Below, in pieces: positions 1,678 to 14,426 of a stretch of 54,727 bases of DNA. The DNA is taken from contig NZ_JAFMPY010000032.1 of NCBI RefSeq assembly GCF_017353515.1, forward strand, positions 1-54,727, in the 5' to 3' direction. Each line of letters starts with the position of its first letter. The stretch's first letter is position 1. A program made the translations under genes and the position numbers. A model generated the notes under the pieces. It did not search any database. It saw only the letters and a program-made list of their open reading frames with translations, and had not been told where the DNA came from. The stretch is from Jiella sonneratiae. GTDB taxonomy: Bacteria > Pseudomonadota > Alphaproteobacteria > Rhizobiales > Rhizobiaceae.

Positions 1678-2748
1678 TCAGGAGAACGGGCGATGATCGA
1701 AGCGGCTCTGCATCCGCTCGAAGATGTCGACCCCCATCTGCTTGAGGAGATGCGGGATGTCGAGCGGCACCCAGTTCTCGCGGATCAGGCCTTCGTGGTG
1801 GAGATAGAAGTCCATCACCCGCATGGTGACCGGCCGGCCGGTCGGCCCGAGGCCCAGGAAGCCGCCGCCTTGGTGCATGGCGAAGACGCTCGGCCAGCCG
1901 CCGGTCACCGAATAGGGGCCGTCGCCGATCCGGATGTAGTGCCCGCCCCCGTGCTGCGCCTTGAGCTCGGCGATCTCGTCCCACTGCCCGCCACCCTTGC
2001 GGCCCGGGAAGGCGGTGCGGAACGGCAGCTGATGATAGTCGACGAAGCCCTCAAGGCCCCGCGTCGTACCGATCCCGGCAGGGCCGTACCACATCATCTT
2101 CGGATGCCAGTGCAGCCTCTGCGGCATGTCGAGGAGCCCCTGCCGCCCGGCAGTTCCCTGGTCGTCGTAGGCGCCGAGCGTCCCGTGCATGGCGAGCGTC
2201 TGGGCAAGGCTCGCCGCCGACTGGGCAGGATCGCTTTCGCCGATGACGATGCCGTCGGCGGTCAGCGGGGCCGGCCACATCCCCTCGGTGCCGAGGCTCG
2301 GCGCGATCGGCCAGTGCCCCGCCTGCCGCATCACGTCGAGAATGTCCCACAGACAGCTGCTCTGGACGATCCGGCCATCCTCGACCTGATGCACCTCGCC
2401 GTAGCGCAGATAGACCGGACGCCCGGTCGAGGGAATCGACAGCCAGTCCTCGCGGAACGCCCCGCAGTAGTGGCCGACGGCAGCGACGTAGTCGCGCCCC
2501 TCGAAGGAGCCGGCGACGAAGATCACGTCGCGGCGCTCGAGATCCGGAAACGCGTGCAGCAGGGGCCGCCATACCGCCGCCTCGATTGCCTCCGGTCCGC
2601 GCATCTCGTTCAGCGGATGCGAGCCCCGCCACTCGGCCCGCGGATGGTAGAGCCCGGCCAGCCGTGACCCGACGTCGGCGAGCGAACTTTCGGAGAGCGC
2701 TGCGAGGGCGCCCCGAAGCCACCGCTTGTTCTGAAGATGATCGGCCAT
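1678..2748 (-). CDS. SnoaL/NTF2-like ester cyclase family protein (two domains)
   Basis: The product has 356 residues from the ATG at 2748, chosen because GAGGGGGG lies just upstream. It holds two NTF2-like (SnoaL polyketide-cyclase-like) cone domains. The first is about residues 15-190, with AFPDLERRDVIFVAG; the second is about 235-350, with WYGPAGIGTTRGLEGF, then GPTGRPVTMRVMDF and IRENWVPLDIP. It is a full-length paralogue of the protein at 8155-9231, sharing AFPDLERRD, WYGPAGIGT.RGL.GF, HQ.PF and the DF...LIRENWV end. Family members are lyases, isomerases or cyclases acting on small, often aromatic or polyketide-like substrates; the substrate here is unknown. It is transcribed away from the ABC importer, from a promoter region with two LacI-type operators, so it is probably co-regulated with the main operon. 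Confidence 0.85.
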   Translation of the reverse strand: MADHLQNKRWLRGALAALSESSLADVGSRLAGLYHPRAEWRGSHPLNEMRGPEAIEAAVWRPLLHAFPDLERRDVIFVAGSFEGRDYVAAVGHYCGAFREDWLSIPSTGRPVYLRYGEVHQVEDGRIVQSSCLWDILDVMRQAGHWPIAPSLGTEGMWPAPLTADGIVIGESDPAQSAASLAQTLAMHGTLGAYDDQGTAGRQGLLDMPQRLHWHPKMMWYGPAGIGTTRGLEGFVDYHQLPFRTAFPGRKGGGQWDEIAELKAQHGGGHYIRIGDGPYSVTGGWPSVFAMHQGGGFLGLGPTGRPVTMRVMDFYLHHEGLIRENWVPLDIPHLLKQMGVDIFERMQSRFDHRPFS

Positions 2749-2807
2749 GCGCCCCCCCTCTCTTCCGGCATTCCAGAAAACCTCGGCGACCCATGCCTCG
2801 CACAAAA

Positions 2808-2823
2808 TTGGATACGTATGCAA
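2808..2823. promoter_or_regulatory. LacI-type operator 1
   Basis: TTGGATACGTATGCAA matches the perfect palindrome TTGCATACGTATGCAA at 15 of 16 positions, with the central CG typical of LacI/GalR operators. It lies 60 bp upstream of the start of the minus-strand SnoaL gene and about 200 bp upstream of the solute-binding protein gene. The LacI gene at 9995-11017 is the likely binder; that pairing is inferred. Confidence 0.72.
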
Positions 2824-2831
2824 TATCGCTC

Positions 2832-2847
2832 TTGCAAACGTATGCAA
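2832..2847. promoter_or_regulatory. LacI-type operator 2
   Basis: TTGCAAACGTATGCAA matches the same 16-bp palindrome as operator 1 at 15 of 16 positions. The mismatch lies elsewhere, so the two sites support one shared consensus. The centres are 24 bp apart, a little over two helical turns, which would allow paired dimers on nearly one face of the DNA. The site lies in the same divergent promoter region. Confidence 0.72.
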
Positions 2848-3018
2848 AATTGCTATCGTCGGTAAATCGAGGCTCGAGACGGCCCCGGACAGTCATCGAA
2901 GGCAAGCGCTGCGGAGCCCCACCCTTCTGCCCGGGCCATGCGCCGGCAGCGGCAGGATACGGTGCACCCCAAGGCCCGATCGGCACCTCCCCGGATCGGC
3001 ACCTCCAAGGAGAAGATG

Positions 3019-4254
3019 ATGAAGACCATCTACGGGTTTGCCATGGCGGCGAGCGCGCTGGCGCTCTCGACGGGTTCGGCCTTCGCCGGCTGCGGCATCG
3101 ACAAGGGGTCGGTCCGCATTCTCTCCAACGACTTCCCGGCGCTGCAGGAAGTCGTCGCGGCTGCCTCAAAATGTGCTGGCGACGGCGTGACCGTCACGAA
3201 GAATCTGACGACGGAACACGAGCAGCTGATGGTTCCTGCCCTGTCGGCCAATCCGTCGGAATACACCTCGGTCTTCGTCGCGACGAGTTCGATCCAGCCG
3301 CTCGTCGCCAACAGCCTGATCCGCCCGCTCGACGACTACGTCGCGACATACGGCAAAGGCATCGCCGACAAACAGAAGATCTCGATCGGCGGCAAGGTGA
3401 TGGCGATCGCCTTCGACGCCAACGCCCAGCATCTGTTCTACCGCGCCGACATCCTCGAAGAGGCGGGCGTCGAGCCGCCGAAGACCTACGAGGAGATGCT
3501 GGCGGCGGCAGAGGCGATCCGCGGCAAGGGGCTGATGCAGTACCCGATCGCCGGCACATACAAGGCCGGCTGGAACCTCGCCGAGGAATTCGTCAACATG
3601 TATATCGGCTTCGGCGGCGCGTTCTTCGAGCCGGGATCGGCGAAGCCGGCGATCGACAACGAGAAGGGGGTCGCCGCGCTCGAGATGATGAAGAAGCTCA
3701 GCGCCTACATGAATCCCGACTTCCTCACCTTCGATTCCAACTCGGTGCAGGCCGAGTTCGAGGCCGGCAACGCGGCGCTCTCGAACTTCTGGGGCTCGCG
3801 CTACGGCGCGGTGATCGACGACCAGGGATCGACCGAGAAGATCACCAGCGAGATCAAGATCGGCCCGGCGCCGACGGTCGGCGGCGGCAGCATTCCGGCG
3901 ACGACGCTCTGGTGGGACGGCTTCACCGTCGCCAGGAACATTTCCGACGAGGATGCGGCGGCGACGTTCCAGGCGCTGACCCACGGCGCTTCGGCCGAGA
4001 TGGCGAACGCCCACACCAACGACGCGGTCTGGCTGATCGACGGTTACGAGCCCGGCGTCGAGGCGGAGGTCGTCCTGAAGACGCTGTCGATGGGCGGCAA
4101 GACCTATCCCGCCGGCCCCTATATGGGCCTGATGCACACGGCGCTCGGCAACGAGATCGTCTCCTTCATGCAGGGCAAGGAGAACGCCGAGAAGGCACTT
4201 GCCGACACCGAGGCGGCCTATACCGCCGCCGCGAAGGAACAGGGCTACCTCTGA
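3019..4254 (+). CDS. Extracellular solute-binding protein (family 1) of carbohydrate-type ABC importer
   Basis: This is the periplasmic receptor of the importer encoded next to it. It has 411 residues with a Sec signal peptide (MKTIYGFAMAASALALSTGS, cleavage near AFA/GC). The mature part resembles family 1 binding proteins (MalE/UgpB class): VRILSNDFPALQEVV near the start, later YEEMLAAAEAIR, and WWDGFTVARN in the C-terminal lobe. AAGGAGA at 3007-3013 precedes two ATG codons, at 3016 and 3019; the second has the better spacing. Ligand class cannot be read from the sequence. Permeases of this family also carry glycosides, polyols and other organic solutes, so 'sugar' is only the family label. 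A short hairpin follows the gene. Confidence 0.88.
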   Translation: MKTIYGFAMAASALALSTGSAFAGCGIDKGSVRILSNDFPALQEVVAAASKCAGDGVTVTKNLTTEHEQLMVPALSANPSEYTSVFVATSSIQPLVANSLIRPLDDYVATYGKGIADKQKISIGGKVMAIAFDANAQHLFYRADILEEAGVEPPKTYEEMLAAAEAIRGKGLMQYPIAGTYKAGWNLAEEFVNMYIGFGGAFFEPGSAKPAIDNEKGVAALEMMKKLSAYMNPDFLTFDSNSVQAEFEAGNAALSNFWGSRYGAVIDDQGSTEKITSEIKIGPAPTVGGGSIPATTLWWDGFTVARNISDEDAAATFQALTHGASAEMANAHTNDAVWLIDGYEPGVEAEVVLKTLSMGGKTYPAGPYMGLMHTALGNEIVSFMQGKENAEKALADTEAAYTAAAKEQGYL

Positions 4255-4319
4255 ACCGGCCCGCCGCGGGGGCGGCCTGAGTCGCCGCTCCCTGCTTCCA
4301 GCAACCGTCGATCGAGGGA

Positions 4320-4336
4320 CCGGAGCGATGCTCCGG
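4320..4336 (+). other. Intercistronic hairpin after the binding-protein gene
   Basis: CCGGAGC, a 3-base loop and GCTCCGG form a perfect 7-bp stem between the binding-protein gene and the first permease gene. No T-run follows, so it is not a classic terminator. Such hairpins often protect the upstream message and raise binding protein over permease levels; that role is inferred. Confidence 0.5.
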
Positions 4337-4343
4337 ACCGGGG

Positions 4344-5372
4344 ATGCCGCACCGCACCTTCATCTGGTTCATCCTGCCGTCGGCCCTGGCGATGCTGATC
4401 TTCATCGCCCTGCCGATCGTCTCGATCCTCGTCCAGTCGCTCTTCGTCGAGAACGAGCGGGTGCTGGTCACGGTCGAGAACTGCGGGCCCTTCGGCTGCC
4501 AGAAGGAAGTCAGGGTCGACGCGCAGGCGACGGCGGCTTTGCAGCGCGAGCACCCGCTCGGCCGCTTCAACGGCCTCGGCACCTATGGCAACCGCAGCCA
4601 CCTCGCCTTCTCCGAGATCGCGGCGATCTGGAACGCCCGGCCGACGCTCGCCGGCTTCCTGTCCGAGGTCATGACGCTTCCCTTCTACCGGGCGCTCGCC
4701 TTCACCCTCGCCTACACCGCCGTCGTCACCCCCCTGGTCATCGCCCTCGGCTTCTTCATCGCGCTGGCGGTCGACGCCCTGCCGCGCATGGTCAAGGGAC
4801 CGGTCATCTTCATGTCGCTGCTGCCGATGATGATCACGCCGCTGATCGGCTCGCTGGTCCTGTTCTGGATGATCGATTCCAACGGCATCATCGGCGCCTC
4901 CATCCAGGCGCTGGCGAACGACCCGTCGCTGTCGCTGAAAGCCTCGGCGACGCTCGCCTGGATCACCCTCTTCGTCTACGGCATCTGGCATTCGGCGCCC
5001 TTCGCCTTCGTGGTCTTCTATGCCGGGCTGCAGACGGTGCCGCAGGATACGATGGAATCGGCGATGATCGACGGCGCCAGCCGCTGGGAACGCGTGCGCT
5101 ACGTCGTCCTGCCGCATCTCTCGCCGCTCGTCGTCTTCGTCGCCCTGATCCAGCTGATGGATAATTTCCGGGTGTTCGAGCCGATCGTCGGCTTCAGCGC
5201 CCAGGCCAACGCCACCTCGCTGTCCTTCAACATCTACAACGACCTGCGCAGCACCGGCACGCCGCTGTTCGGATCGGCCGCAGCGACCTCCGTCCTGACG
5301 CTCGCCGGCGTCGCCCTTCTCCTGACGCCCGTCCTCGTGCGGACCTGGCGCGACTTCAAGCGGTCGAGGTAG
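4344..5372 (+). CDS. ABC importer permease (MalF/UgpA type)
   Basis: The product is a 342-residue inner-membrane protein with about six transmembrane helices, the first at residues 5-30 (FIWFILPSALAMLIFIALPI). The EAA loop that docks on the ATPase is clear: ESAMIDGASRWERVRYVVLP, near residues 235-254. An unusually long periplasmic loop lies between helix 1 and helix 2 (about residues 35-105) and contains two cysteines in NCGPFGC. The gene begins 89 bp after the binding-protein gene and ends 4 bp before the second permease, so it belongs to one operon. It pairs with the product of 5377-6258 to form the membrane channel. Confidence 0.9.
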   Translation: MPHRTFIWFILPSALAMLIFIALPIVSILVQSLFVENERVLVTVENCGPFGCQKEVRVDAQATAALQREHPLGRFNGLGTYGNRSHLAFSEIAAIWNARPTLAGFLSEVMTLPFYRALAFTLAYTAVVTPLVIALGFFIALAVDALPRMVKGPVIFMSLLPMMITPLIGSLVLFWMIDSNGIIGASIQALANDPSLSLKASATLAWITLFVYGIWHSAPFAFVVFYAGLQTVPQDTMESAMIDGASRWERVRYVVLPHLSPLVVFVALIQLMDNFRVFEPIVGFSAQANATSLSFNIYNDLRSTGTPLFGSAAATSVLTLAGVALLLTPVLVRTWRDFKRSR

Positions 5373-5376
5373 CGCC

Positions 5377-6258
5377 ATGACCGCCAAGACGCGCCGCCGC
5401 CCGCCCGTCCTCGCCGTCCTGTCCACGGCCTTCATCGTCCTGTGGCTGGTGCTGGCGGCCTTCCCGTTCCTCTGGACGCTGTGGGGCTCGTTCAAGGTGC
5501 AGGGCGACTTCTTCTCCCGGCAGGACTGGGTCAACGCCCTCACCGGCGTCCACACGATCGCCGAGACCGGCGGCCCGTTCACCGGTCGCGGCTATTACGG
5601 CGCATGGGTGACCAAGGAGTTCTGGCGCGCCGCGATCAACACCGGCATCGTCACCGTTTCGGTCGTCCTGATCTCGCTGACCTTCGGCACGCTCGGCGGT
5701 TATGCCCTGTCGCGCTCGCCGCACCGCTACGCCTTCTGGATCCTGATCGCCGCACTGATCTTCCGGGCGATGCCGCACATCACGCTGGTCTCAGGCTACC
5801 TCCTGCCGTTCTTCCAGCTGAACGTCTGGGGCTACCTGACGACGGCGATCGTCGTCCTCGTGGCAATCAACCAGCCCTTCACGCTGTGGATGCTGCATTC
5901 CTTCTTCAAGAGCATCCCGAAGGATCTCGACGAGAGCGCGATGGTCGACGGCTGCTCGCGCTTCCAGGCGTTCCGGATGGTGATCATCCCGGTGATGTGG
6001 CCGGGCGTCGTGACCACCGGCCTGTTCTCCTTCCTCCTCGCCTACAACGACTTCGCGGTCACCGCGACGCTGCTCACACAGGACAACCAGACCATGGTGC
6101 CGAAGATCGCGAGCTTCCTCGGCACGACGCAGGTCCAGGGCAACGTCATGTACGCCGTCTCGGCCGTCGTCTCGGCGACGGTGCCGCTCTTCCTCCTCGT
6201 CCTTTTCTTCCAGCGCCAGATCGTCAGCGGCCTGACCGCCGGCGCCGTCAAGGGTTAG
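5377..6258 (+). CDS. ABC importer permease (MalG/UgpE type)
   Basis: The product is a 293-residue inner-membrane protein with about six helices. The first is LAVLSTAFIVLWLVLAAFPF at residues 8-27. The C-terminal half has the EAA docking loop ESAMVDGCSRFQAFRMVIIP (about residues 187-206), placed as in MalG-like permeases. It starts 4 bp after the first permease and ends 6 bp before the ATPase gene, typical of a tightly coupled importer operon. The length is that of the family. Which of the two permeases contacts substrate cannot be said from the sequence. Confidence 0.9.
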   Translation: MTAKTRRRPPVLAVLSTAFIVLWLVLAAFPFLWTLWGSFKVQGDFFSRQDWVNALTGVHTIAETGGPFTGRGYYGAWVTKEFWRAAINTGIVTVSVVLISLTFGTLGGYALSRSPHRYAFWILIAALIFRAMPHITLVSGYLLPFFQLNVWGYLTTAIVVLVAINQPFTLWMLHSFFKSIPKDLDESAMVDGCSRFQAFRMVIIPVMWPGVVTTGLFSFLLAYNDFAVTATLLTQDNQTMVPKIASFLGTTQVQGNVMYAVSAVVSATVPLFLLVLFFQRQIVSGLTAGAVKG

Positions 6259-6264
6259 CCCGCC

Positions 6265-7320
6265 ATGGCCGAGATCCAGCTCAAGAACGTCTCGAAGCGC
6301 TGGGGCAACTTCGTCGCCGTCGACGCCTTCGACCTTGCCATCGCCGACGAGGAGTTCCTCGTCCTGCTCGGACCCTCCGGCTGCGGCAAGACGACGACCA
6401 TGCGGATGATCGCCGGGCTGGAGGAGATCACGGACGGCGAGATCTTCATCGGCGAACGGCTGGTCAACCGGCTGGAACCGAAGGACCGCGACATCGCCAT
6501 GGTGTTCCAGAGCTACGGTCTCTACCCGACCATGAGCGTCTACGAGAACATCCGCTTTCCGCTGAAGGTCCGCCGCGTCGCCAAGGACGAGCACCACGAG
6601 CGGGTGATGCGCGCCGCGAAGATGGTGGAGCTCACCGACTTCCTCGAACGGCGGCCGGCGGAACTCTCGGGCGGGCAGCGTCAGCGGGTGGCGCTCGCCC
6701 GGGCGATCGTCCGCCAGCCGACGGTCTTCCTGATGGACGAGCCGCTGTCCAATCTCGACGCCAAGCTGCGCGTCTCCACCCGCTCGCAGATCAAGAACCT
6801 CCACCACGAGCTGCGCACCACGACGATCTACGTCACCCACGACCAGATCGAGGCGATGACGCTCGCCGACCGTGTGGTGGTGATGAACAAGGGCGTCGTG
6901 CAGCAGGTCGGCACGCCGCTCGAAATCTACGACCGCCCGGCCAACACCTTCGTCGCCGGCTTCATCGGCTCGCCGGCGATGAACCTGATCGACGGCACGA
7001 TCGGGGACGGGGTCTTCACGGGCCAGAACGTCACGATCAAGGGGCTTCCCGCCACGGTGTCCGGCCCGGTCACGCTCGGATTCCGCGCCGAGGACGCGGC
7101 GGCGAGGCCAGACGGCGGCGGCGAAATCGCCGCGCCGATCTTCTCGCTGGAACTCCTCGGCGAAGCCTCGATGGTCACCGTGCAGGCCGGCGGGGCGCTC
7201 GTCGCGGTCAAGGTGCCGAAGGACTTTGCCGCCGAGATCGGCAGCGCGTTCAGCGCCGCGGTGCCTGCCGGGATCTGCCACCTCTTCGACGCCGAGAGCG
7301 GCAAGCGCATCGCAGTCTGA
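6265..7320 (+). CDS. ABC importer ATP-binding protein (MalK/UgpC type)
   Basis: The product has 351 residues and powers the importer in the cytoplasm. The nucleotide-binding domain shows Walker [11 protein letters not shown] (about 36-45), signature [14 protein letters not shown] (about 133-146), Walker [13 protein letters not shown] and the switch histidine in YVTHDQ. A C-terminal regulatory TOBE/OB region follows from about residue 235, as in MalK/UgpC. The family usually energises carbohydrate or glycerol-phosphate importers. The gene starts 6 bp after the second permease, and a SnoaL-like gene follows 19 bp later, so importer and enzymes are in one transcription unit. Confidence 0.93.
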
Positions 7321-7339
7321 CATCCGACGGAGAACACAC

Positions 7340-7891
7340 ATGGCCGGCGCAAGACCCGAACAGGCGGTCCTCACCCGCGACACCGACATGACCAAGACCG
7401 AGGAGACCCGCCGGGTCGTCGAGGGCATGGTCGACGGGCTGAACGACCACCGCATCGCCGACATCGGCGAGTTCTTCTCCGAGACCTTCCGCTGGATCGG
7501 CAACCAGGGCTGCGGGCTGAAGAACGGCGTGCGCGAATTCCAGGACAACTGGCAGCGGCCGTTCCAGGCCGCCTTCTCCGACAAGGTCTGCATCGACGAG
7601 GCGCGGCTCTTCATGGGCGAGTGGGCGGCCGCCTTCGGTCGGCAGGAGGCGACGCATTCCGGCCCGTTCATGGGCGTCGCGCCGACCGGCAGGCGGGTCG
7701 AGATCCGCTACATGGACTTCTGGAAGGTCGAGGAGGGCAAGATCGTCGACAACTGGGTCAGCGTCGACTTCCCGCACGTCCTGGCGCAGCTCGGCGTCGA
7801 CGTGTTTTCCGGCGAGGGCTGGGAGGCCTTCGACCGCGGCGAGAAGACGCCGCCCCGCCCGCTGCGTCAGTCACGCTCGTCGATCGGCTAG
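7340..7891 (+). CDS. SnoaL/NTF2-like ester cyclase family protein (single domain)
   Basis: The product has 183 residues and a single NTF2-like domain. ATG 7340 is preceded by GGAG at suitable spacing. The C-terminal half carries the same block as the larger paralogues: APTGRRVEIRYMDFWKVEEG, then NWVSVDFPHVL and QLGVDVF. It corresponds to the second domain of the proteins at 1678 and 8155, so one-domain and two-domain versions occur in one locus. Partner or substrate specialisation is possible but not shown. The enzymatic role (cyclase, lyase or isomerase) is only a family expectation. A long inverted repeat follows the gene. Confidence 0.85.
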   Translation: MAGARPEQAVLTRDTDMTKTEETRRVVEGMVDGLNDHRIADIGEFFSETFRWIGNQGCGLKNGVREFQDNWQRPFQAAFSDKVCIDEARLFMGEWAAAFGRQEATHSGPFMGVAPTGRRVEIRYMDFWKVEEGKIVDNWVSVDFPHVLAQLGVDVFSGEGWEAFDRGEKTPPRPLRQSRSSIG

Positions 7892-7963
7892 TGGTCTTTC
7901 CATTCCGACATTTGCTTCGCGGTCTCCACAGGAAGGCACCAAATGTCGGAACCAGACCACCAG
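7888..7963. repeat. Imperfect inverted repeat, about 24-bp arms
   Basis: The core arms TTCCGACATTTG (7903-7914) and CAAATGTCGGAA (7940-7951) are perfectly complementary, and the outer GTGGTC (7891-7896) and GACCAC (7955-7960) pair again. The central loop is 25 bases. The left arm begins just before the stop codon of the 183-residue SnoaL gene. No T-run follows, so an intrinsic terminator is unlikely. It could be an mRNA-stability hairpin, a regulator site or a MITE-like remnant. Confidence 0.65.
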
Positions 7964-8011
7964 CGGTCCGCGACAAGTCAACGAGAACAAGAAAAACGAC
8001 GAGGGATGGAA

Positions 8012-8158
8012 ATGGCCGTCACCGATCTGAAGCGAAGCAAGCCTGGGGCCGGCGGGCCGCAGGGCGCAAAAAGGGCGCGCCCCGTCGGCGTGGCGACGGC
8101 GAAGAGCGTCGAGCCCTGCTGCACGAGGATCCTCACCGACGCGGCGGCCGCGCAATGA
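8012..8158 (+). CDS. Small protein of unknown function, coupled to the next gene
   Basis: This 48-residue frame starts at ATG 8012, with GAGGG at 8001-8005; an in-frame ATG at 8006 is less well spaced. It ends at TGA 8156-8158, overlapping the ATG of the next gene (8155) in an ATGA junction. The next gene has no clear ribosome-binding site of its own, so translational coupling is plausible. The peptide is basic and Ala/Gly-rich in the middle and ends CCTRILTDAAAAQ, with a Cys-Cys pair. I recognise no family. It could be a genuine small subunit or only a leader that delivers ribosomes downstream. Confidence 0.4.
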   Translation: MAVTDLKRSKPGAGGPQGAKRARPVGVATAKSVEPCCTRILTDAAAAQ

Positions 8159-9231
8159 ACGCCGCCGACATCAACACGGCCCAGCGGAACAAGGCGGCGC
8201 TCGCACCGCTGCGGGCGGCGATGGCCGACTTCGAGGCGAAGGCCGTGCGCACGGCTGTGGCGGAGCTCCTCGATGCCGGCGCCGTCGTTCATCTCTGCGA
8301 GCCTTTCGGCGACTGCACCGGGCCGCAGGCGTTCTACGATCGCGCCTATGCGCCGCTTCTCGCCGCCTTCCCCGACCTCGAACGCCGCGACCTGATCGTC
8401 ATCGCCGGACGGACGGCCGAGGGCGCCGAGTGGGTGGGCTGCTGCGGCTATTACACCGGAACTTTCGCGCGGGCCTTCCTGGACATTCCGCCCACCGGCC
8501 ACCAGGCGGCGATGCGCTTTCACGAATTCTTCCGCTTCGCGGCAGGCCGGGTGGTCGAGGTCCAGGCGATCTGGGACGTGCCGGAGCTGATGCTGCAGGC
8601 CGGCGCCTGGCCGCTCGCGCCGAGCCTCGGGCGCGAATGGCAGGTGCCGGGCCCGGCGACGCAGGACGGGCTGTTTCCGGGTCCCGGAGCTTCGCCGGCA
8701 GACGCCGAACGGGGCGCCGAGACGTGCCGGCTCGTCGTCGACATGCTGGCGCACATGACGCGGCATCCGGCCAAGGGCGGCCCCGAGGTGATGGAACTCG
8801 AGCGCTTCTGGCATGAGCGGATGAGTTGGTACGGCCCGGCCGGAATCGGCACTGCCCGCGGCTTGAAGGGCTTCCGCAACTGGCACCAGATCCCGTTCCT
8901 GACGGCGATGCCGGATCGCGGCCAGTACCCGGGCGAGACCGCGCACCACTTCTTCGGTGAGCGCAACTATGCGGCGGTGACCGGCTGGCCGAACATGATG
9001 CAGACGGTCAGCGGCAGCGGCTGGCTCGGCATCGCGCCGACGGGACGGCGCATCGCCATGCGCAGCCTCGACTTCTGGCGGGTCGAGGGCGGTCTGATCC
9101 GCGAGAACTGGGTGCTCGTCGACCTTCTCGACGTCTATCGCCAGCTGGGGCTCGACGTCTTCGCGCGGCTGCGCGAGTTCAACAAAGCGCGGGCCGGCTT
9201 CGATTGCGAGACCGGGAGAGTGCTGCCGTGA
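8155..9231 (+). CDS. SnoaL/NTF2-like ester cyclase family protein (two domains)
   Basis: The product has 358 residues and two NTF2-like domains. The first has AFPDLERRDLIVIAG (about 71-85); the second starts near WYGPAGIGTARGLKGF (about 224-239) and ends GRRIAMRSLDFWR...LIRENWVLVD. It is a clear paralogue of the divergently transcribed protein at 1678-2748, with the same two-domain length. Conserved histidines and aromatic residues (HQIPF, WYGP) may line the cavity, but catalytic residues of the subgroup are not established. The start overlaps the upstream small frame by ATGA, and the stop overlaps the next gene's GTG by GTGA, so translation through this part of the operon is coupled. Confidence 0.85.
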   Translation: MNAADINTAQRNKAALAPLRAAMADFEAKAVRTAVAELLDAGAVVHLCEPFGDCTGPQAFYDRAYAPLLAAFPDLERRDLIVIAGRTAEGAEWVGCCGYYTGTFARAFLDIPPTGHQAAMRFHEFFRFAAGRVVEVQAIWDVPELMLQAGAWPLAPSLGREWQVPGPATQDGLFPGPGASPADAERGAETCRLVVDMLAHMTRHPAKGGPEVMELERFWHERMSWYGPAGIGTARGLKGFRNWHQIPFLTAMPDRGQYPGETAHHFFGERNYAAVTGWPNMMQTVSGSGWLGIAPTGRRIAMRSLDFWRVEGGLIRENWVLVDLLDVYRQLGLDVFARLREFNKARAGFDCETGRVLP

Positions 9232-9995
9232 CGCCGCTTCCCACCTCTCCTTCCTTCCGGCTCGAAGGCCGGCGGGCGCTCGTCACCGGGGCCTCCTCCG
9301 GCATCGGCCTCGGCTGCGCGGTAGCGCTCGCCGAAGCGGGCGCGGAAGTCGTGCTGGCGGCGCGGCGCATCGAGCGGCTGGACGACGCCGTGGCGGCGCT
9401 TCGTGCGAGAGGCTGCCGCGCCGAAGCCCTGCGGCTCGACGTCGCCGAGGTCGAGGCCAGCGCCGATGCCGTCGCGGGCCGCGGCCCTTTCGACATTCTG
9501 GTCAACAGCGCCGGGCTCGGCCGCCATGGTCCCGCCGTCGACACGAAGCCGGAGGACTTCGATGCCGTCGCCGCCATCAACCTTCGCGGCGCCTATTTCC
9601 TGACGCAGGCCGTGGCGAGGGGGCTGATCGCCGCCAAACGTTCCGGATCGCTGATCAACGTCACCTCGCAGATGGGCCATGTCGGCGGCATCGACCGTGC
9701 CGTCTACTGCGCGACCAAGCATGCCGTCGAGGGGTTTACCAAGGCGATGGCGATCGAGTGGGGCCCGCACCGCATCCGGGTCAACACCGTCGCCCCGACC
9801 TTCATACGCACGCCGCTGACCGAGGCGACCTTCGCCGGTCCGGAGCGGCGGCGCTGGATCGAGGAGAAGATCAAGCTGCCGCGGGTGGGCGAAGTCTCCG
9901 ACGTGATGGGCGCGGTCCTCTATCTCGCGAGCGATGCCGCGTCCATGGTGACGGGAACCTCGCTCCTGGTCGACGGCGGCTGGACGGCCGGCTGA
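9228..9995 (+). CDS. Short-chain dehydrogenase/reductase (SDR)
   Basis: The product has 255 residues and is a classical SDR, a cytoplasmic NAD(P)-dependent oxidoreductase of alcohols or ketones. Motifs are the cofactor-binding TGASSGIG near residue 21, NSAGLG near 91, and the catalytic Ser in NVTSQMG followed by the YCATK motif (Tyr and Lys). The C-terminus has DGGWTAG, standard for the family. GTG 9228 overlaps the previous stop (GTGA), and the stop overlaps the LacI start (TGATG). It is likely to oxidise or reduce an intermediate of the imported compound. Substrate and cofactor preference are not determined. Confidence 0.9.
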   Translation: MTPLPTSPSFRLEGRRALVTGASSGIGLGCAVALAEAGAEVVLAARRIERLDDAVAALRARGCRAEALRLDVAEVEASADAVAGRGPFDILVNSAGLGRHGPAVDTKPEDFDAVAAINLRGAYFLTQAVARGLIAAKRSGSLINVTSQMGHVGGIDRAVYCATKHAVEGFTKAMAIEWGPHRIRVNTVAPTFIRTPLTEATFAGPERRRWIEEKIKLPRVGEVSDVMGAVLYLASDAASMVTGTSLLVDGGWTAG

Positions 9996-11017
9996 TGGCA
10001 CAGGACAAGGTCACCTCGATCGACGTCGCGCGGCTGGCAGGCGTCAGCCAGTCGGCCGTGTCGCGGGTCTTCACGCCGGGCGCCTCCGTGTCGAAGCGCA
10101 CGGCGCAGAAGGTGCGCGAGGCGGCAGAGGCGCTCGGCTACCGCCCGAACATCCTGGCCCGATCGCTGATCACCGGCCGCAGCCGGATCATCGGCCTCGT
10201 GGTCGCCTATCTGGAAAACTACTTCTACCCCGAGGCTTTGGAAAAGCTCTCCAACGCCCTGCAGGCCGAGGGCTACCACGTCCTCGTCTTCATGGCCTCG
10301 CAGACCGCCGGCAACATCGACGACGTCCTGACCGAGATCCTCGACTATCAGGTCGACGGCATCATCATGGCCTCCGTCGCGCTGTCGTCCGACCTCTCCT
10401 CGCGCTGCCAGGCGGCGGGAGTGCCGGTCGTCCTGTTCAACCGGCATCAGGACGACGACACGCTGACGGCGGTCATTTCCGACAATGCGGGTGGCGCACG
10501 GATGCTGGCCAGCTTTCTCGTCGAAGCCGGACACGAGCGGATCGCCCATATCGCCGGCTGGGAAGGCGCCTCCACCCAGCGCGATCGGGAGTCCGGCTTC
10601 CGCGATGGCCTTGCGGCCTGCGGCCGGGCGCTGTTCGCCCGCGAGGTCGGGAATTTCGAGCCGGAGACCGCCCGGCAGGCGGCGCGGCGCATGTTCGACC
10701 GAGAAGACCGCCCGGACGCCGTCTTCGTCGCGAACGACCACATGGCCTTCTTCGTGATGGACGTCCTGCGCTTCGAGCTCGGCCTGCAGGTTCCGGACGA
10801 CGTCTCGGTCGTCGGCTTCGACGACGTGCCGCCGGCGGCCTGGCCGGCCTACGGCCTCACCACCGTCCGCCAGCGCGCCAACCGCATGGTGGAAGAGACC
10901 GTCAAGGCGCTGCTGGAGCGCATCGAGAACCCGCATGCAGACCCGAAGCGGATCGCGCTCGACGCGCCGCTGATCGTCCGCACGTCGTCACGCACACCGG
11001 AAGGATGGGGCCGATGA
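9995..11017 (+). CDS. LacI-family transcriptional regulator of the SnoaL/ABC locus
   Basis: The product has 340 residues. An N-terminal helix-turn-helix (SIDVARLAGVSQSAVSRVF, about residues 8-26) is followed by the hinge and the periplasmic-binding-like effector domain. The later part contains DAVFVANDHMAF and VPDDVSVVGFDDVP, typical for the family. It overlaps the genes on both sides, so it sits inside the operon it probably controls. The two near-identical palindromes at 2808-2847 are the likely operators. The effector would then be the imported compound or a product of the pathway. Whether it represses or activates is inferred; most relatives repress. Confidence 0.93.
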   Translation: MAQDKVTSIDVARLAGVSQSAVSRVFTPGASVSKRTAQKVREAAEALGYRPNILARSLITGRSRIIGLVVAYLENYFYPEALEKLSNALQAEGYHVLVFMASQTAGNIDDVLTEILDYQVDGIIMASVALSSDLSSRCQAAGVPVVLFNRHQDDDTLTAVISDNAGGARMLASFLVEAGHERIAHIAGWEGASTQRDRESGFRDGLAACGRALFAREVGNFEPETARQAARRMFDREDRPDAVFVANDHMAFFVMDVLRFELGLQVPDDVSVVGFDDVPPAAWPAYGLTTVRQRANRMVEETVKALLERIENPHADPKRIALDAPLIVRTSSRTPEGWGR

Positions 11018-11982
11018 AGGGCTTCGACGAAAAATTCCGAGACTTTCCCGACTACATCATCGGCATCACCAAGGAGATCTGGGAAGACCGCGGCATCGCG
11101 ACGCTCACCCGCTATTACGCGCCGGACATCGTGGTGCGTTCGCCCGCCTCGGTGGTCACCGGCAATGCGGGCGTGATCGCCGCGACGCTCGCCACGCTCG
11201 CCGAGTTTCCCGACCGCACGCTGCTCGCCGAGGACGTGATCTGGGCCGGCACGCCGGAAGACGGGATGCTGTCCTCGCACCGCATCCTCTCGACCGCGAC
11301 GCACCTTGCCGACGGCGTCTACGGCAAGGCGAGCGGCAGAAAGCTCTCCTATCGCATCATCGCCGACTGCCACGCCATCGATAACCGGATCGACGACGAG
11401 TGGCTGATCCGCGACCAGGGCGCGATCGTGCGCCAGATGGGGCTCGACCCGAAGGACTACGCACGCGACCTGATCGCCCGCGAGGGCGGGCCGGAGGCCT
11501 GCGTCCGCCCGCTGACGCCGGAGACCGACCGGCCCGGCCCTTACCAGGGGCGCGGCAACGACGACGCATGGGGCCGGCGCCATGCCGACATCCTCACCCG
11601 CATCATGAACGCCGACATGGCGGTCATCCCGGCCGAATACGACCGCGGCTGCCAGCTCGAATATCCGGGCGGCGTCACCGGGCACGGCACCGGCCCCGCC
11701 GACCGCTTCTGGATGGGGCTGAGGGCGAGCTTTCCCTCCGCCACCTTTCGCATCGAGCACGTCATCGGCCGCGACGATCCCCTGATGCCGCCGCGCGCGG
11801 CGATCCGCTGGAGCCTCACCGGCAGGCACGACGGCTGGGGCGCCTTCGGCCCGCCGACCGGCGCCCAGGTCTACGTCCTCGGCGCATCGCATGCCGAGTT
11901 CGGGCCCTGGGGCCTGCGGCGCGAATACACGCTCTACGACGAGACCGCGATCTGGAAGCAGATCGTCCTGAAGACCGGCTAA
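11014..11982 (+). CDS. SnoaL/NTF2-like family protein (two domains), divergent member
   Basis: The product has 322 residues from ATG 11014, which overlaps the LacI stop (ATGA) and has GGAAGG 9 bases upstream; an in-frame ATG at 11005 is the alternative. The first NTF2-like half has TRYYAPDIVVRSPASVV, and the second (from about residue 185) has ADILTRIMNADMAVIPAEYD and ends FGPWGLRREYTLYDETAIWK. It lacks the WYGPAGIGT block of its two neighbours, so it is a separate branch of the superfamily and may act on a different intermediate. It is the fourth SnoaL-like protein in 10 kb. Confidence 0.75.
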   Translation: MKGFDEKFRDFPDYIIGITKEIWEDRGIATLTRYYAPDIVVRSPASVVTGNAGVIAATLATLAEFPDRTLLAEDVIWAGTPEDGMLSSHRILSTATHLADGVYGKASGRKLSYRIIADCHAIDNRIDDEWLIRDQGAIVRQMGLDPKDYARDLIAREGGPEACVRPLTPETDRPGPYQGRGNDDAWGRRHADILTRIMNADMAVIPAEYDRGCQLEYPGGVTGHGTGPADRFWMGLRASFPSATFRIEHVIGRDDPLMPPRAAIRWSLTGRHDGWGAFGPPTGAQVYVLGASHAEFGPWGLRREYTLYDETAIWKQIVLKTG

Positions 11983-12038
11983 CCGTCCCGCAACCACTGC
12001 GGACGAAGGCGACCTTGAGACAAGACGCGAGGAAACTG

Positions 12039-13019
12039 ATGACACTTTCCCGGGAAGACATGGAGCGGCGCATCGTCCGCTACGGCGAACTCCAGCCCTG
12101 CCGCACCGCCTTCATCGACGCCCATACGCCGGGCTCGAACCAGAAGGAGAACTTCACCATCATCGGAGGCGGCGTCTCGGAAAGCCCCGACCAGCACGTC
12201 CACATCAAGGAGACGCCGGGCTTCAACATCGGCGCCGCCGGCCAGCCGCCGCACTGCCGCAACTCGCTCCACTCGCACCGCACGGCGGAGGTCTTCTTCG
12301 TCCTCAAAGGGCGCTGGCGCTTCTTCTGGGGCCGCTTCGGCACCGCCGGCGAGGTGGTGCTCGAAGAGGGCGACATCTTCAACATTCCGACCGGCATCTT
12401 CCGCGGCTTCGAGAACGTCGGCACGGACTACGGGATGATCATGGCGATCCTCGGCGGCGACGATGCCGGAGGCGGCGTCGTCTGGGCGCCGCAGGTGATC
12501 GAGGACGCGCGGGACCACGGCCTCGTGCTCGGCGAGAACGGCAAGCTCTACGATACCAAGAAGGGCCAGCGCCTGCCGGACGGCGTCCGCCCGATGCCGC
12601 TCCTGACGGACGAAGAATTGACGGCGTTCCCGGAGACGCCAGCCGAGGCTGTCGTGCCGTTTCACGTTGCGCGCTACTGGGACCTGATGGCGCTCGCCGG
12701 CAAGGCGCCGGCCAGGGTGATCGGCGCCGATGCCCTCCTGAAGGACCGGCCGGGCTTTTCGGTCGAGCTCCTGACCCGGGGCTCGATCCCGGAGGACGCT
12801 TACGAGACCCCGCGCCACGAAGTGCTGATGCCGGTGCGCGGCCACTGGCGCCTCGCCTGGGACGGCAACAGCACCGTGCTCGCGCCCGGGGACACCTGCG
12901 CCGTGCCTCCGGGTCTTCGCCACGCCCTTGCGCCGTCGATGACCGGCGAGGCGAGCCTCTACCGCATCACCAACACCGACGATCCGGCAGGCGCGACCTG
13001 GCGGGCCGAGGCGGCCTGA
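12039..13019 (+). CDS. Two-domain cupin protein
   Basis: The product has 326 residues and two cupin barrels. The first (about residues 60-145) has the metal-ligand pattern NSLHSHRTAEVFFVLKGRW and then EEGDIFNIPTGIFRGFEN. The second (about 250-315) has RHEVLMPVRGHWRLAWDG and APGDTCAVPPGLRHAL. Bicupins include dioxygenases of the gentisate/hydroxynaphthoate type, as well as isomerases and metal-free binding proteins. The His-x-His and Glu of the first barrel suggest metal binding there; the second keeps fewer ligands. AGGAAA precedes ATG 12039. In this locus a ring-opening or isomerising step is possible but unproven. Confidence 0.82.
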   Translation: MTLSREDMERRIVRYGELQPCRTAFIDAHTPGSNQKENFTIIGGGVSESPDQHVHIKETPGFNIGAAGQPPHCRNSLHSHRTAEVFFVLKGRWRFFWGRFGTAGEVVLEEGDIFNIPTGIFRGFENVGTDYGMIMAILGGDDAGGGVVWAPQVIEDARDHGLVLGENGKLYDTKKGQRLPDGVRPMPLLTDEELTAFPETPAEAVVPFHVARYWDLMALAGKAPARVIGADALLKDRPGFSVELLTRGSIPEDAYETPRHEVLMPVRGHWRLAWDGNSTVLAPGDTCAVPPGLRHALAPSMTGEASLYRITNTDDPAGATWRAEAA

Positions 13020-13020
13020 C

Positions 13021-13731
13021 ATGCCGGAGCGCCGACCGCTGCCGCTCGTGCTGATCCCCGGCATGATGTGCGACGCGCGGCTGTTCGGCCCGCAGATCGC
13101 AGCATTCTCGGCGGAGCGCGCAACCCATGTCGCGGCGATCCTCGCCAAGGACACGGTGGAGGCAATGGCGGCGGACCTTCTCGTCGGCGCGCCGGCGCGC
13201 TTCGCCCTCGCCGGGTTGTCGATGGGCGGCATCGTCGCGATGGAGGTGCTGCGTCAGGCGCCGGAGCGGGTGGAGCGGATCGCCCTCCTCGACACCAATC
13301 CCCTCGCCGAGGCGGCGAATGTCCGGGACGGCCGGGAGCCGCAGATCGAAAAGGCCCGGCAGGGCGGCCTGGAGGCGGTGATGCGCGAGGCGATGCTGCC
13401 GCGCTACGTCGCCGATCCCGTCGCTGGCGCCGGCATCCTCGATCTCTGCCTCCAGATGGCGCTGGCGCTCGGCCCGGCCGTCTTCGAGCGGCAGTCGCGG
13501 GCGCTGCAGACGCGGCCCGACCAGACCGGGACGCTGCGGGCCGCGAAACTCCCGACCCTCATTCTCTGCGGCGAGAACGACGCGCTCTGTCCGGTGGACC
13601 GACACCGGCTCATGCATGACCTCATGCCGGGATCGCGGCTGGAGATCCTGCCCGCCACCGGCCACCTGCCGACGCTGGAACGGCCGGAGACGACGACGAA
13701 AATCCTTCGCGAATGGCTGGATACGCAATGA
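13021..13731 (+). CDS. Alpha/beta hydrolase
   Basis: The product has 236 residues with an alpha/beta-hydrolase fold. LVLIPGMMCDARLFGPQ forms the first strand and oxyanion region. The nucleophile elbow is GLSMGGIVA, with Ser near residue 66. The acid is probably in CGENDALCP (about 182-190), and the histidine is in ATGHLPTLE near residue 219. The full catalytic triad can therefore be placed. It could cleave an ester, lactone or C-C bond (MhpC-like enol-lactone type). It begins 1 bp after the cupin stop and overlaps the next gene by ATGA. Confidence 0.88.
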   Translation: MPERRPLPLVLIPGMMCDARLFGPQIAAFSAERATHVAAILAKDTVEAMAADLLVGAPARFALAGLSMGGIVAMEVLRQAPERVERIALLDTNPLAEAANVRDGREPQIEKARQGGLEAVMREAMLPRYVADPVAGAGILDLCLQMALALGPAVFERQSRALQTRPDQTGTLRAAKLPTLILCGENDALCPVDRHRLMHDLMPGSRLEILPATGHLPTLERPETTTKILREWLDTQ

Positions 13732-14426
13732 TCGACGACACGCTGCTTTCACTGCTGCGCCGGGTCGACACCCCGACCGTCTGCAACGCCATCGAGGTGG
13801 CGGAGGGCAGGCGCGGCTTTGCCGCTTTCACGCGCGGCACCATGCTCGCCTCGGATCCGACGGCCGGACCGATGGTCGGATACGCCCGGACGGCGAAGAT
13901 CGCCGCGCTCGCACCGCCTGCCGAGAACGCGGCGATCATCCGGCAGCGGCGGATGGACTACTACCGCCACATGGCCGAGGCGCCCCGGCCGGCCGTTGCC
14001 GTCGTCGAGGACGTCGACTTCCCGTCCTGCATCGGCGCCTATTGGGGCGAGATCAACAGCACCGTCCACAAGGGTTTCGGGCTGTCCGGCGCCCTCACCA
14101 ACGGCGTCATGCGCGATCTCGGCGACCTGCCCGACGGGTTTCCCGTCGTCGCCGGCTCGGTGGGCCCGAGCCACGGCTTCGTGCATGTCCGCGAGATCGG
14201 CACGAAGGTGACGATCTTCGGCCTGACGATCGGCGACGGCGATCTCGTCCACGCCGATCGCCATGGCGCCCTCGTCGTCCCGCCGGACACCATGCCGCGT
14301 CTCGCCGAGGCCATCGACAAGCTTCTGGCGACCGAGAAGATCGTGCTGGAGCCGGCGCGCCGGGACGGCTTTGATTTCGCGACGTTCGAAAAGGCTTGGG
14401 CGGCATTCGAGGCCGCGCGGACATGA
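13728..14426 (+). CDS. RraA-family protein (HMG/oxaloacetate aldolase-like)
   Basis: The product has 232 residues. It carries the RraA-fold blocks: DTPTVCNAIEVAEG near the start, ALTNGVMRDLGDLP (about 122-135, including the Arg-Asp pair that positions the substrate and metal), and GDLVHADRHGALVVP (about 169-183). Catalytic members cleave 4-hydroxy-4-methyl-2-oxoglutarate or decarboxylate oxaloacetate at the end of aromatic meta-cleavage pathways; others inhibit RNase E or are uncharacterised. In a catabolic operon the lyase role is more likely. ATG 13728 overlaps the hydrolase stop. It is the last gene of the locus. Confidence 0.85.
   Translation: MIDDTLLSLLRRVDTPTVCNAIEVAEGRRGFAAFTRGTMLASDPTAGPMVGYARTAKIAALAPPAENAAIIRQRRMDYYRHMAEAPRPAVAVVEDVDFPSCIGAYWGEINSTVHKGFGLSGALTNGVMRDLGDLPDGFPVVAGSVGPSHGFVHVREIGTKVTIFGLTIGDGDLVHADRHGALVVPPDTMPRLAEAIDKLLATEKIVLEPARRDGFDFATFEKAWAAFEAART

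Follow-up and report, generated by a model that had tools for sequence, protein, structure and literature searches.

A widely recurring SnoaL-rich gene cluster of Jiella sonneratiae and its possible role in the breakdown of mycosporine-like amino acids

Algae, corals and cyanobacteria commonly shield themselves from sunlight with mycosporine-like amino acids (MAAs), which combine a ring, carboxylates, a methyl group and a CH2OH next to a carbinol with serine or threonine and glycine. We know of no reference genes for MAA catabolism. A passage in a review states that Vibrio harveyi turns shinorine and porphyra-334 into mycosporine-glycine and 4-deoxygadusol (PMC3083659). The stretch of DNA analysed here, referred to as the window, comprises 54,727 nucleotides from Jiella sonneratiae (assembly GCF_017353515.1, contig NZ_JAFMPY010000032.1) and is the start of contig C23 in a genome of 5.15 Mb; at positions 1678-14426 it carries a cluster that includes four SnoaL/NTF2-like proteins. 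This cluster is very probably one catabolic unit, and we see an even chance that the unit acts on a compound bearing an amino acid. Somewhat more tentatively, its gene content suggests that the substrate may be an MAA, shinorine or porphyra-334 for instance, or a closely related compound, with oxidative opening of the ring to pyruvate. We put forward with yet more reserve the wider idea that this could be the first genetic pathway for complete bacterial MAA breakdown, wherein two-domain SnoaL proteins would hydrolyse C-N bonds in a cyclohexenone-amino acid conjugate and the ring would be oxidised and cut to 4-carboxy-4-hydroxy-2-oxoadipate (CHA), with variants, some on plasmids, ranging from Proteobacteria to Actinobacteria, Chloroflexi and haloarchaea.

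The cluster holds 13 intact genes in two divergent units, plus a small frame (8012-8158). The leftward unit is the gene for SnoaL-1, and the rightward unit runs from an ABC importer through to an RraA-fold protein. An earlier note, made from the sequence by a model, had listed 13 genes of these classes in two divergent units; with refined coordinates this description was borne out, as Pfam matches above gathering scores confirmed the classes of all named genes. That note had also suggested looking for the same gene order elsewhere, and we found it across many genomes. A scan of genome contigs with SnoaL-3 returned 71 loci, two of which were dropped (L012, the same stretch as L011, and L054, a near-copy of L053), leaving 69 that were gene-called and clustered and to which all counts refer. 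Judged by record titles, the loci belong to Alpha-, Gamma- and Betaproteobacteria, SAR324, Desulfobacteraceae, Acidimicrobiia and Chloroflexi; many come from metagenome-assembled genomes, and many from genera known as marine. The family of SnoaL-1- and SnoaL-3-type proteins is present in 69/69 loci by construction, and SnoaL-4 in 54. Many contigs are cut, and with that limit the remaining counts are 45 for LacI, 44 for the bicupin, 42 for the short-chain dehydrogenase/reductase (SDR), 37-40 for the importer parts, 37 for the hydrolase and 31 for RraA. The copy in the window lacks two members found in other clusters, an HpsN-like oxidation enzyme (43/69 loci) and a MetE-like enzyme (40/69). Shimia marina (L024) and Leisingera aquimarina (L037) are among the bacteria with the set. 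In a common order, SnoaL-1 is divergent from the ATPase, binding protein, permeases, SnoaL-2, HpsN-like enzyme, SnoaL-3, SDR and LacI, followed by SnoaL-4, the bicupin, the MetE-like enzyme, the hydrolase and RraA. Because the same set recurs in nearly the same order in many genomes, the grouping exceeds chance.

SnoaL-3 had any match at all in 51 of the 397 genomes that belong to the window's taxonomic order. Twelve genomes besides its own have a match at 59-71% identity (E <1e-100), and the one same-genus genome searched gave a weak match only. The closest relative of the cluster is found in Fulvimarina manganoxydans, where permease 2 is 90% identical and the HpsN-like gene is kept; no MetE-like gene was found in the stretch of it that was examined. 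SnoaL-3 matches were also present in 23 of 72,556 plasmid records, some by way of SnoaL-1-type homologues; 16 plasmid regions were searched, and all but L205 of these (15) were also read. The plasmid hosts include coral-derived Ruegeria, Marinovum algicola, Tritonibacter, Octadecabacter and Vibrio pelagius. A plasmid of a soil Ensifer carries nearly all of the genes but not SnoaL-3, and a cluster relative is present on one plasmid of Halobellus limi, a haloarchaeon isolated from a solar saltern. Several replacements are seen among relatives: an HpaI aldolase for RraA, an SSS symporter for the ABC importer and, for the HpsN-like enzyme, either a GMC enzyme or an aldehyde dehydrogenase with another dehydrogenase. 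Some loci additionally contain a fuconolactonase-like amidohydrolase and SMP-30.

The cluster encodes its own LacI-family regulator (9995-11017, + strand; LacI 1.3e-12, Peripla_BP_3 5.4e-31), and the divergent promoter that SnoaL-1 shares with the importer contains two copies of a 16-bp palindrome, TTGCATACGTATGCAA. Copy 1 (TTGGATACGTATGCAA, 2808-2823) has one mismatch to the palindrome, and copy 2 (TTGCAAACGTATGCAA, 2832-2847) lies 24 bp from it; neither has an assigned strand. Only 0.02 matches with three or fewer mismatches are expected in the window, and the cluster LacI likely binds these predicted operators at 2808-2847. The strict form has no further place in the genome, while a looser pattern has one further exact place (L152), which precedes an unrelated importer-like gene set, and four with one mismatch. 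Among the 69 loci, the motif was found with at least 13/16 matching positions in 43, mostly in the SnoaL-1/importer promoter and, in related loci, often as pairs 54-55 bp apart; a base-shuffled control of all 69 loci gave one match. A wider pattern was found in 24 of 30 whole genomes, with 1-3 places in 23 of them and 17 in one, these places not being matched each to a cluster; it gave no match in the other six, and a reversed-pattern control gave zero matches in the 30. The loci of Kineobactrum, HTCC2148, Glaciecola, Pseudoalteromonas, Thalassotalea and Colwellia gave no match to the common motif. At L061, L066 and L079 a different palindrome, ATTGACTTCGAAGTCAAT, marks the SnoaL/SSS promoters, and in Vibrio europaeus a similar operator was looked for and not found. 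Through its predicted binding, the common operator therefore ties the SnoaL genes, the importer and the enzymes into one regulon; together with the gene order common to several classes, it speaks for the single uptake-and-catabolism unit proposed in the earlier note.

The genome with 17 places is that of Jannaschia aquimarina (G431; L136-L148), in which the cluster genes are split up. Fourteen of these places, in 13 regions, were examined: cluster genes stand at the site in four only, plus one TRAP-type operon, and several sites fall inside unrelated genes. The operator pattern also lies ahead of another CUT1-like importer, with a putative D-amino acid dehydrogenase gene close by, at L149 and L151 (from the genomes of L019 and L014).

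As to the substrate, we see genes of serine, threonine and glycine catabolism beside the cluster in several lineages. In Kineobactrum, SnoaL-3 is near glyA, sdaA and gcvT, then putative gcvH and gcvP. The SnoaL-4 homologue of HTCC2148 adjoins sdaA and a Gly_transporter protein, and in three Litoreibacter loci sdaA adjoins SnoaL-3, with an Asp/Glu racemase-family gene too in two. Two Halomonas loci (L017, L020) have tdh-kbl among the SnoaL genes. An amino-acid-gene match was found in 4/16 plasmid regions. In V. europaeus, sdaA and an SSS gene are divergent from an MFS gene, a SnoaL-1-like gene, a porin and LacI; in V. pelagius WXL662, SnoaL-3 is followed by sarcosine oxidase, purU and sdaA; and in Ensifer, tdh-kbl adjoins the cluster. 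For comparison, 60 random 20-kb control regions were drawn, and 51, from seven of the genomes, were kept after dropping one with a cluster, one about 13 kb away from one, three that overlapped and four absent from the named contig. A subset of SdaA, Tdh and Kbl, chosen after seeing the data, was present at 7/69 loci in four lineages versus 0/51 control regions (p 0.018).

The strongest single observation for an amino acid link comes from the Ensifer plasmid, where two palindromes of the form ATGCATATATATGC(A/T)A lie in the promoter that separates kbl from a second LacI gene. Within the 31 kb analysed, only three sites match the cluster operator at 13/16 or more, located at the importer promoter, before the other LacI and at the kbl/second-LacI promoter; 0.03 are expected at the kbl promoter, and three sites were obtained in 0/400 simulated sequences. 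The second LacI has the stretch VARLAGVSQSAVSRVF in common with the LacI of the window, and of the 21 best-matching genomes for this second LacI within the window's order, 18 have a SnoaL-3-type match too (E <1e-40). Since Ser/Thr/Gly-catabolic neighbours recur in several lineages, they are moderate evidence that serine, threonine or glycine is also among the products of the compound. This narrows the earlier proposal of a glycoside, polyol or aromatic-polyketide-like substrate, which was too vague. As a separate observation, L123, in the genome of L022 (Halomonas urmiana), has tdh in two pieces and a cut kbl beside putative transposase genes within the cluster region.

A sugar-like, carboxylated, methylated compound with a CH2OH beside a carbinol and a ring cleavable to a 4-hydroxy-2-oxo acid, which yields serine or threonine plus glycine, fits an MAA. 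In the route that we propose, the CUT1 importer (elsewhere an SSS or perhaps an MFS transporter) would take up a small polyol-like, carboxylated ring compound, and the two-domain SnoaL proteins would hydrolyse its imine and enaminone C-N bonds, releasing serine or threonine and glycine and leaving 4-deoxygadusol. An HpsN-like dehydrogenase, deleted here and perhaps supplied by a paralog on contig C4, would oxidise the ring CH2OH to COOH. In other clusters the methyl group would be removed by the MetE-like enzyme. No ortholog of the relatives' MetE-like protein was found in this genome (best match 26 bits), so another exit for the methyl would be needed here; one option is that the alpha/beta hydrolase cuts a methyl ester once the ring has been cleaved. 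Using O2, the bicupin would open the enediol-type ring by a cut between its enediol carbons, and the RraA-fold enzyme (elsewhere HpaI) would split CHA to pyruvate and oxaloacetate. On paper, 4-deoxygadusol with its CH2OH converted to COOH and minus the methyl is C7H8O6, and addition of O2 gives C7H8O8, the formula of CHA, which is the usual substrate of RraA-fold CHA aldolases. The sugar-class importer, ring-opening-type enzymes and aldolase-type end described in the earlier note are all supported.

All four SnoaL proteins have SnoaL-like domains (Pfam PF07366/PF12680) above gathering score. SnoaL-1 (1678-2748, - strand; SnoaL 8.8e-19), SnoaL-3 (8155-9231, +; SnoaL 1.4e-24), which served as the search query, and SnoaL-4 (11005-11982, +; SnoaL 1.7e-14, SnoaL_2 1.1e-11) comprise two domains, and SnoaL-2 (7388-7891, +; SnoaL 8.3e-20) a single domain. 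A two-domain SnoaL-1 homologue is divergent from the importer in many loci. An AlphaFold model of SnoaL-3, made with a 51-sequence alignment (pLDDT 90.9), is a tandem pair of NTF2-type domains with fold matches to AclR, SnoaL2, SnoaL, ketosteroid isomerase and PhzA/B, the last of which ties with many other matches; these and our other structure searches yielded folds only. PhzA/B is an NTF2-fold protein acting on amino-cyclohexenone compounds. The NCBIfam scan took in ten cluster proteins, with the best 25 of 236 matches for the SDR and the best 25 of 31 for the hydrolase, and among the matches listed none of the ten proteins reached a cut-off. A role as polyketide cyclases proper was rejected on this basis: against the SnoaL/DnrD polyketide methyl ester cyclase model NF033407 (cut-off 200 bits), SnoaL-2 scored 34.6 bits and SnoaL-3 19.1 bits, and SnoaL-1 and SnoaL-4 gave no match among those listed.

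The small frame, which the earlier note listed with the genes of the locus, is not a gene of the pathway but the scar of a deleted HpsN/HisD-family dehydrogenase gene (7997-8151, +), and this rules it out as a peptide gene. Most relatives have a HisD-family gene of about 440 codons between SnoaL-2 and SnoaL-3. Compared with the Fulvimarina copy by blastn, the scar retains 47 bp at 89% identity (E 9e-9) and a collinear 22 bp at 91% (E 0.002), separated by 1131 bp in Fulvimarina versus 87 bp in the window. It thus keeps the 5' end of the gene and a stretch near codons 387-396, with some 1.0 kb in between lost, and these collinear remnants identify it as an internal deletion. Among solved structures, the relatives' enzyme is closer to HpsN (386 bits) than to histidinol dehydrogenase (249 bits). 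An HpsN-like paralog on contig C4 of the same genome (L115) is 85% identical to the Fulvimarina cluster enzyme and stands in an operon that, from gene names read from sequence, looks like one for tetronate/tetritol use and that has a LacI and an ABC importer to itself. Fulvimarina also has a second copy (L116), in a trio of HpaI aldolase, HpsN-like dehydrogenase and an SDR that is 71% identical to that of the window; no SnoaL match was found in this 20-kb region, and the trio is possibly a sub-pathway.

The RraA-fold protein (13713-14426, +; RraA-like 1.2e-14) is a candidate 4-hydroxy-2-oxo acid aldolase. Residues N130, R134 and D135 are invariant in 24 sequences, and the R-D pair aligns with that of the CHA aldolase 3noj. 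In RraA-fold class II aldolases an Arg-Asp pair of this kind has a known role, and the protein combines it with the Pfam RraA-like domain that together mark this class; its score against the LigK/PcmE (CHA/oxaloacetate aldolase) equivalog was 21.6 of 304.5 bits. The bicupin (12039-13019, +) is a candidate ring-cleaving dioxygenase, in which H78, H80, E84 and R122 are invariant in 36 sequences. The canonical gentisate/salicylate-type motif is a three-histidine metal site, and aromatic cleavage of the gentisate type was rejected for this protein, whose first domain lacks the third His at its usual place and for which, at E 0.1, none of the Pfam and NCBIfam models of gentisate or salicylate dioxygenases gave a match. 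The alpha/beta hydrolase (13021-13731, +; Abhydrolase_6 4.8e-11) is PcaD/BioH-like and reached 86.7 of 255.9 bits against the PcaD enol-lactonase model. The SDR oxidoreductase (9249 or 9204 to 9995, +; adh_short_C2 7.4e-59) has gluconate 5-dehydrogenase, glucose 1-dehydrogenase and KduD among its nearest models, all below cut-off.

The importer has the make-up of the CUT1 class, with an SBP_bac solute-binding protein (3016-4254, +; SBP_bac_8 1.4e-19), two BPD_transp_1 permeases (permease 1, 4344-5372, +, 1.8e-10; permease 2, 5377-6258, +, 6.6e-16) and an ATPase with a MalK-type OB domain (6265-7320, +; ABC_tran 1.2e-31, OB_MalK 1.9e-7). The relatives of the binding protein in the PDB are mostly sugar binders, such as the trehalose/maltose binder 1eu8 (1.6e-12) and SmoF 7nbz (8.5e-9), at weak similarity. 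Just left of the cluster, 1078-1524 is a remnant of a second LacI-type regulator, consisting of its C-terminal part (Peripla_BP_3, 1.5e-12), with no Pfam match for the DNA-binding part. Near the contig end lies a gene for a PRiA4_ORF3-family protein (288-932, -; Pfam 3.3e-60), the family being named after a plasmid gene.

Several of these observations weigh against an MAA as the substrate. Any link to a substrate is indirect, and LacI, CUT1 and SSS proteins are typical of sugars. General enrichment of amino acid genes beside the cluster had to be rejected, as all 12 reference proteins together gave 9/69 loci versus 3/51 control regions (p 0.16, not significant); the SdaA/Tdh/Kbl subset is post hoc and the control genomes are lineage-unmatched. 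No such amino acid neighbour is present at 60/69 loci, and the neighbours of L027, L033 and L039 are instead aldo/keto reductase and SDR-domain genes. Since 4-deoxygadusol has a tertiary carbinol in its ring, the SDR is left without a clear step. As the paralog on C4 stands in what looks like a tetronate/tetritol operon, the HpsN-like enzyme type may serve plain polyols. The bicupin has R122 in place of the usual third metal histidine and a second domain that looks degenerate, and in the fold search quercetinase ties with seed-storage cupins. Lastly, the copy in the window may be impaired, since it lacks the HpsN-like gene in a genome without a MetE-like ortholog; in mitigation, the former has a paralog and the latter is absent from other clusters too.

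The main rival, which we hold to be rather unlikely, is that the cluster breaks down a rare and perhaps O-methylated compound (a sugar acid, cyclitol or branched polyol), in which case the SnoaL proteins would act as dehydratases or lyases. LacI, CUT1/SSS uptake, SDR and HpsN-like dehydrogenases, a lactonase and an HpaI/RraA aldolase would then make up an oxidative sugar-acid route, in keeping with the sugar class of importer and regulator, the SDR's sub-cut-off likeness to sugar dehydrogenase models, the fuconolactonase-like and SMP-30 genes of some loci, the tetronate-type operon of the paralog and the reductase genes beside L027, L033 and L039. On its own, however, such a route leaves unexplained both the three or more two-domain SnoaL proteins and the serine and threonine genes beside the module, including the operator-like sites of Ensifer; nor was a glycosidase found among the annotated genes, for which no systematic search was made. 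With the SDR unplaced, the paralog of tetronate type, modest neighbour statistics and a ligand that is predicted, we keep the MAA assignment tentative beside this rival. The same neighbours (SdaA, Tdh-Kbl, GcvT, sarcosine oxidase and the Asp/Glu racemase family) that suggest an MAA would equally suit another amino-acid-bearing compound, e.g. a glycosylated or Schiff-base conjugate of serine, threonine or glycine. This we regard as improbable, as such a conjugate would not in itself explain why a ring-cleaving dioxygenase, a methyl-handling enzyme and a 4-hydroxy-2-oxo acid aldolase occur in combination.

We give even less credence to a methoxylated aromatic or aromatic glycoside degraded by gentisate-type ring cleavage. 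The dioxygenase-like fold of the bicupin, the PcaD-like hydrolase and the LigK-like RraA protein (the latter two below cut-off) would be in line with it, but a ring hydroxylase and CoA ligase are absent from the conserved set of the 69 loci, the bicupin matched none of the relevant dioxygenase models, and LacI control and CUT1 import are unusual for aromatics. It is scarcely credible that the SnoaL genes merely adjoin a sugar operon and act separately. SnoaL-3 does stand away from other cluster genes in some loci (e.g. L051, L058, L060, L063, L081), but the lone-SnoaL-3 genomes of L051, L063 and L072 carry an HpsN-like ortholog farther off, beside which (L117, L118, L119) homologues of SnoaL-4 and LacI are present in 3/3 and of the SnoaL-1 type in 2/3. 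Moreover, the SnoaL genes keep their interleaved positions from class to class, and the operators sit between SnoaL-1 and the importer.

The earlier note knew of no described pathway with this gene set, and we likewise found none in open-access full text, where neither this cluster nor MAA catabolic genes were found described; an earlier account in subscription papers is possible. If the substrate is indeed an MAA, these would be bacterial genes for taking apart common sunscreens of algae, corals and cyanobacteria. Even with another substrate, the cluster represents a widespread, partly plasmid-borne and tightly regulated module, whose combination of enzymes has no description that we found in open-access full text.

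In comparison with known systems, all the parts of a CUT1 sugar importer are present, as in the trehalose/maltose and SmoF systems, with weak similarity to the solved binders listed. The SnoaL/AknH cyclases and the wider NTF2/SnoaL fold (SnoaL2, ketosteroid isomerase, PhzA/B) are the nearest relatives of the SnoaL proteins, but here we see tandem two-domain proteins in a catabolic cluster that fall below the NF033407 cut-off. Sulfopropanediol 3-dehydrogenase HpsN, of the HisD family, is, among solved structures, nearest by sequence to the relatives' dehydrogenase, whereas the surrounding gene set differs and the gene is deleted in the window. In contrast to the quercetin 2,3-dioxygenase and gentisate/salicylate 1,2-dioxygenase bicupins, the protein found here has Arg for the third metal His, a degenerate-looking second domain and a fold match tied with storage cupins. 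The CHA/HMG aldolases LigK and ProA share the RraA fold, and the protein of the window has the RraA-like domain with its R-D pair but is far below the LigK/PcmE cut-off; in other lineages its place is taken by the HpaI aldolase. Finally, the conversion of MAAs by Vibrio harveyi, for which the review passage does not name genes (PMC3083659), would equal the reaction proposed here for the SnoaL proteins.

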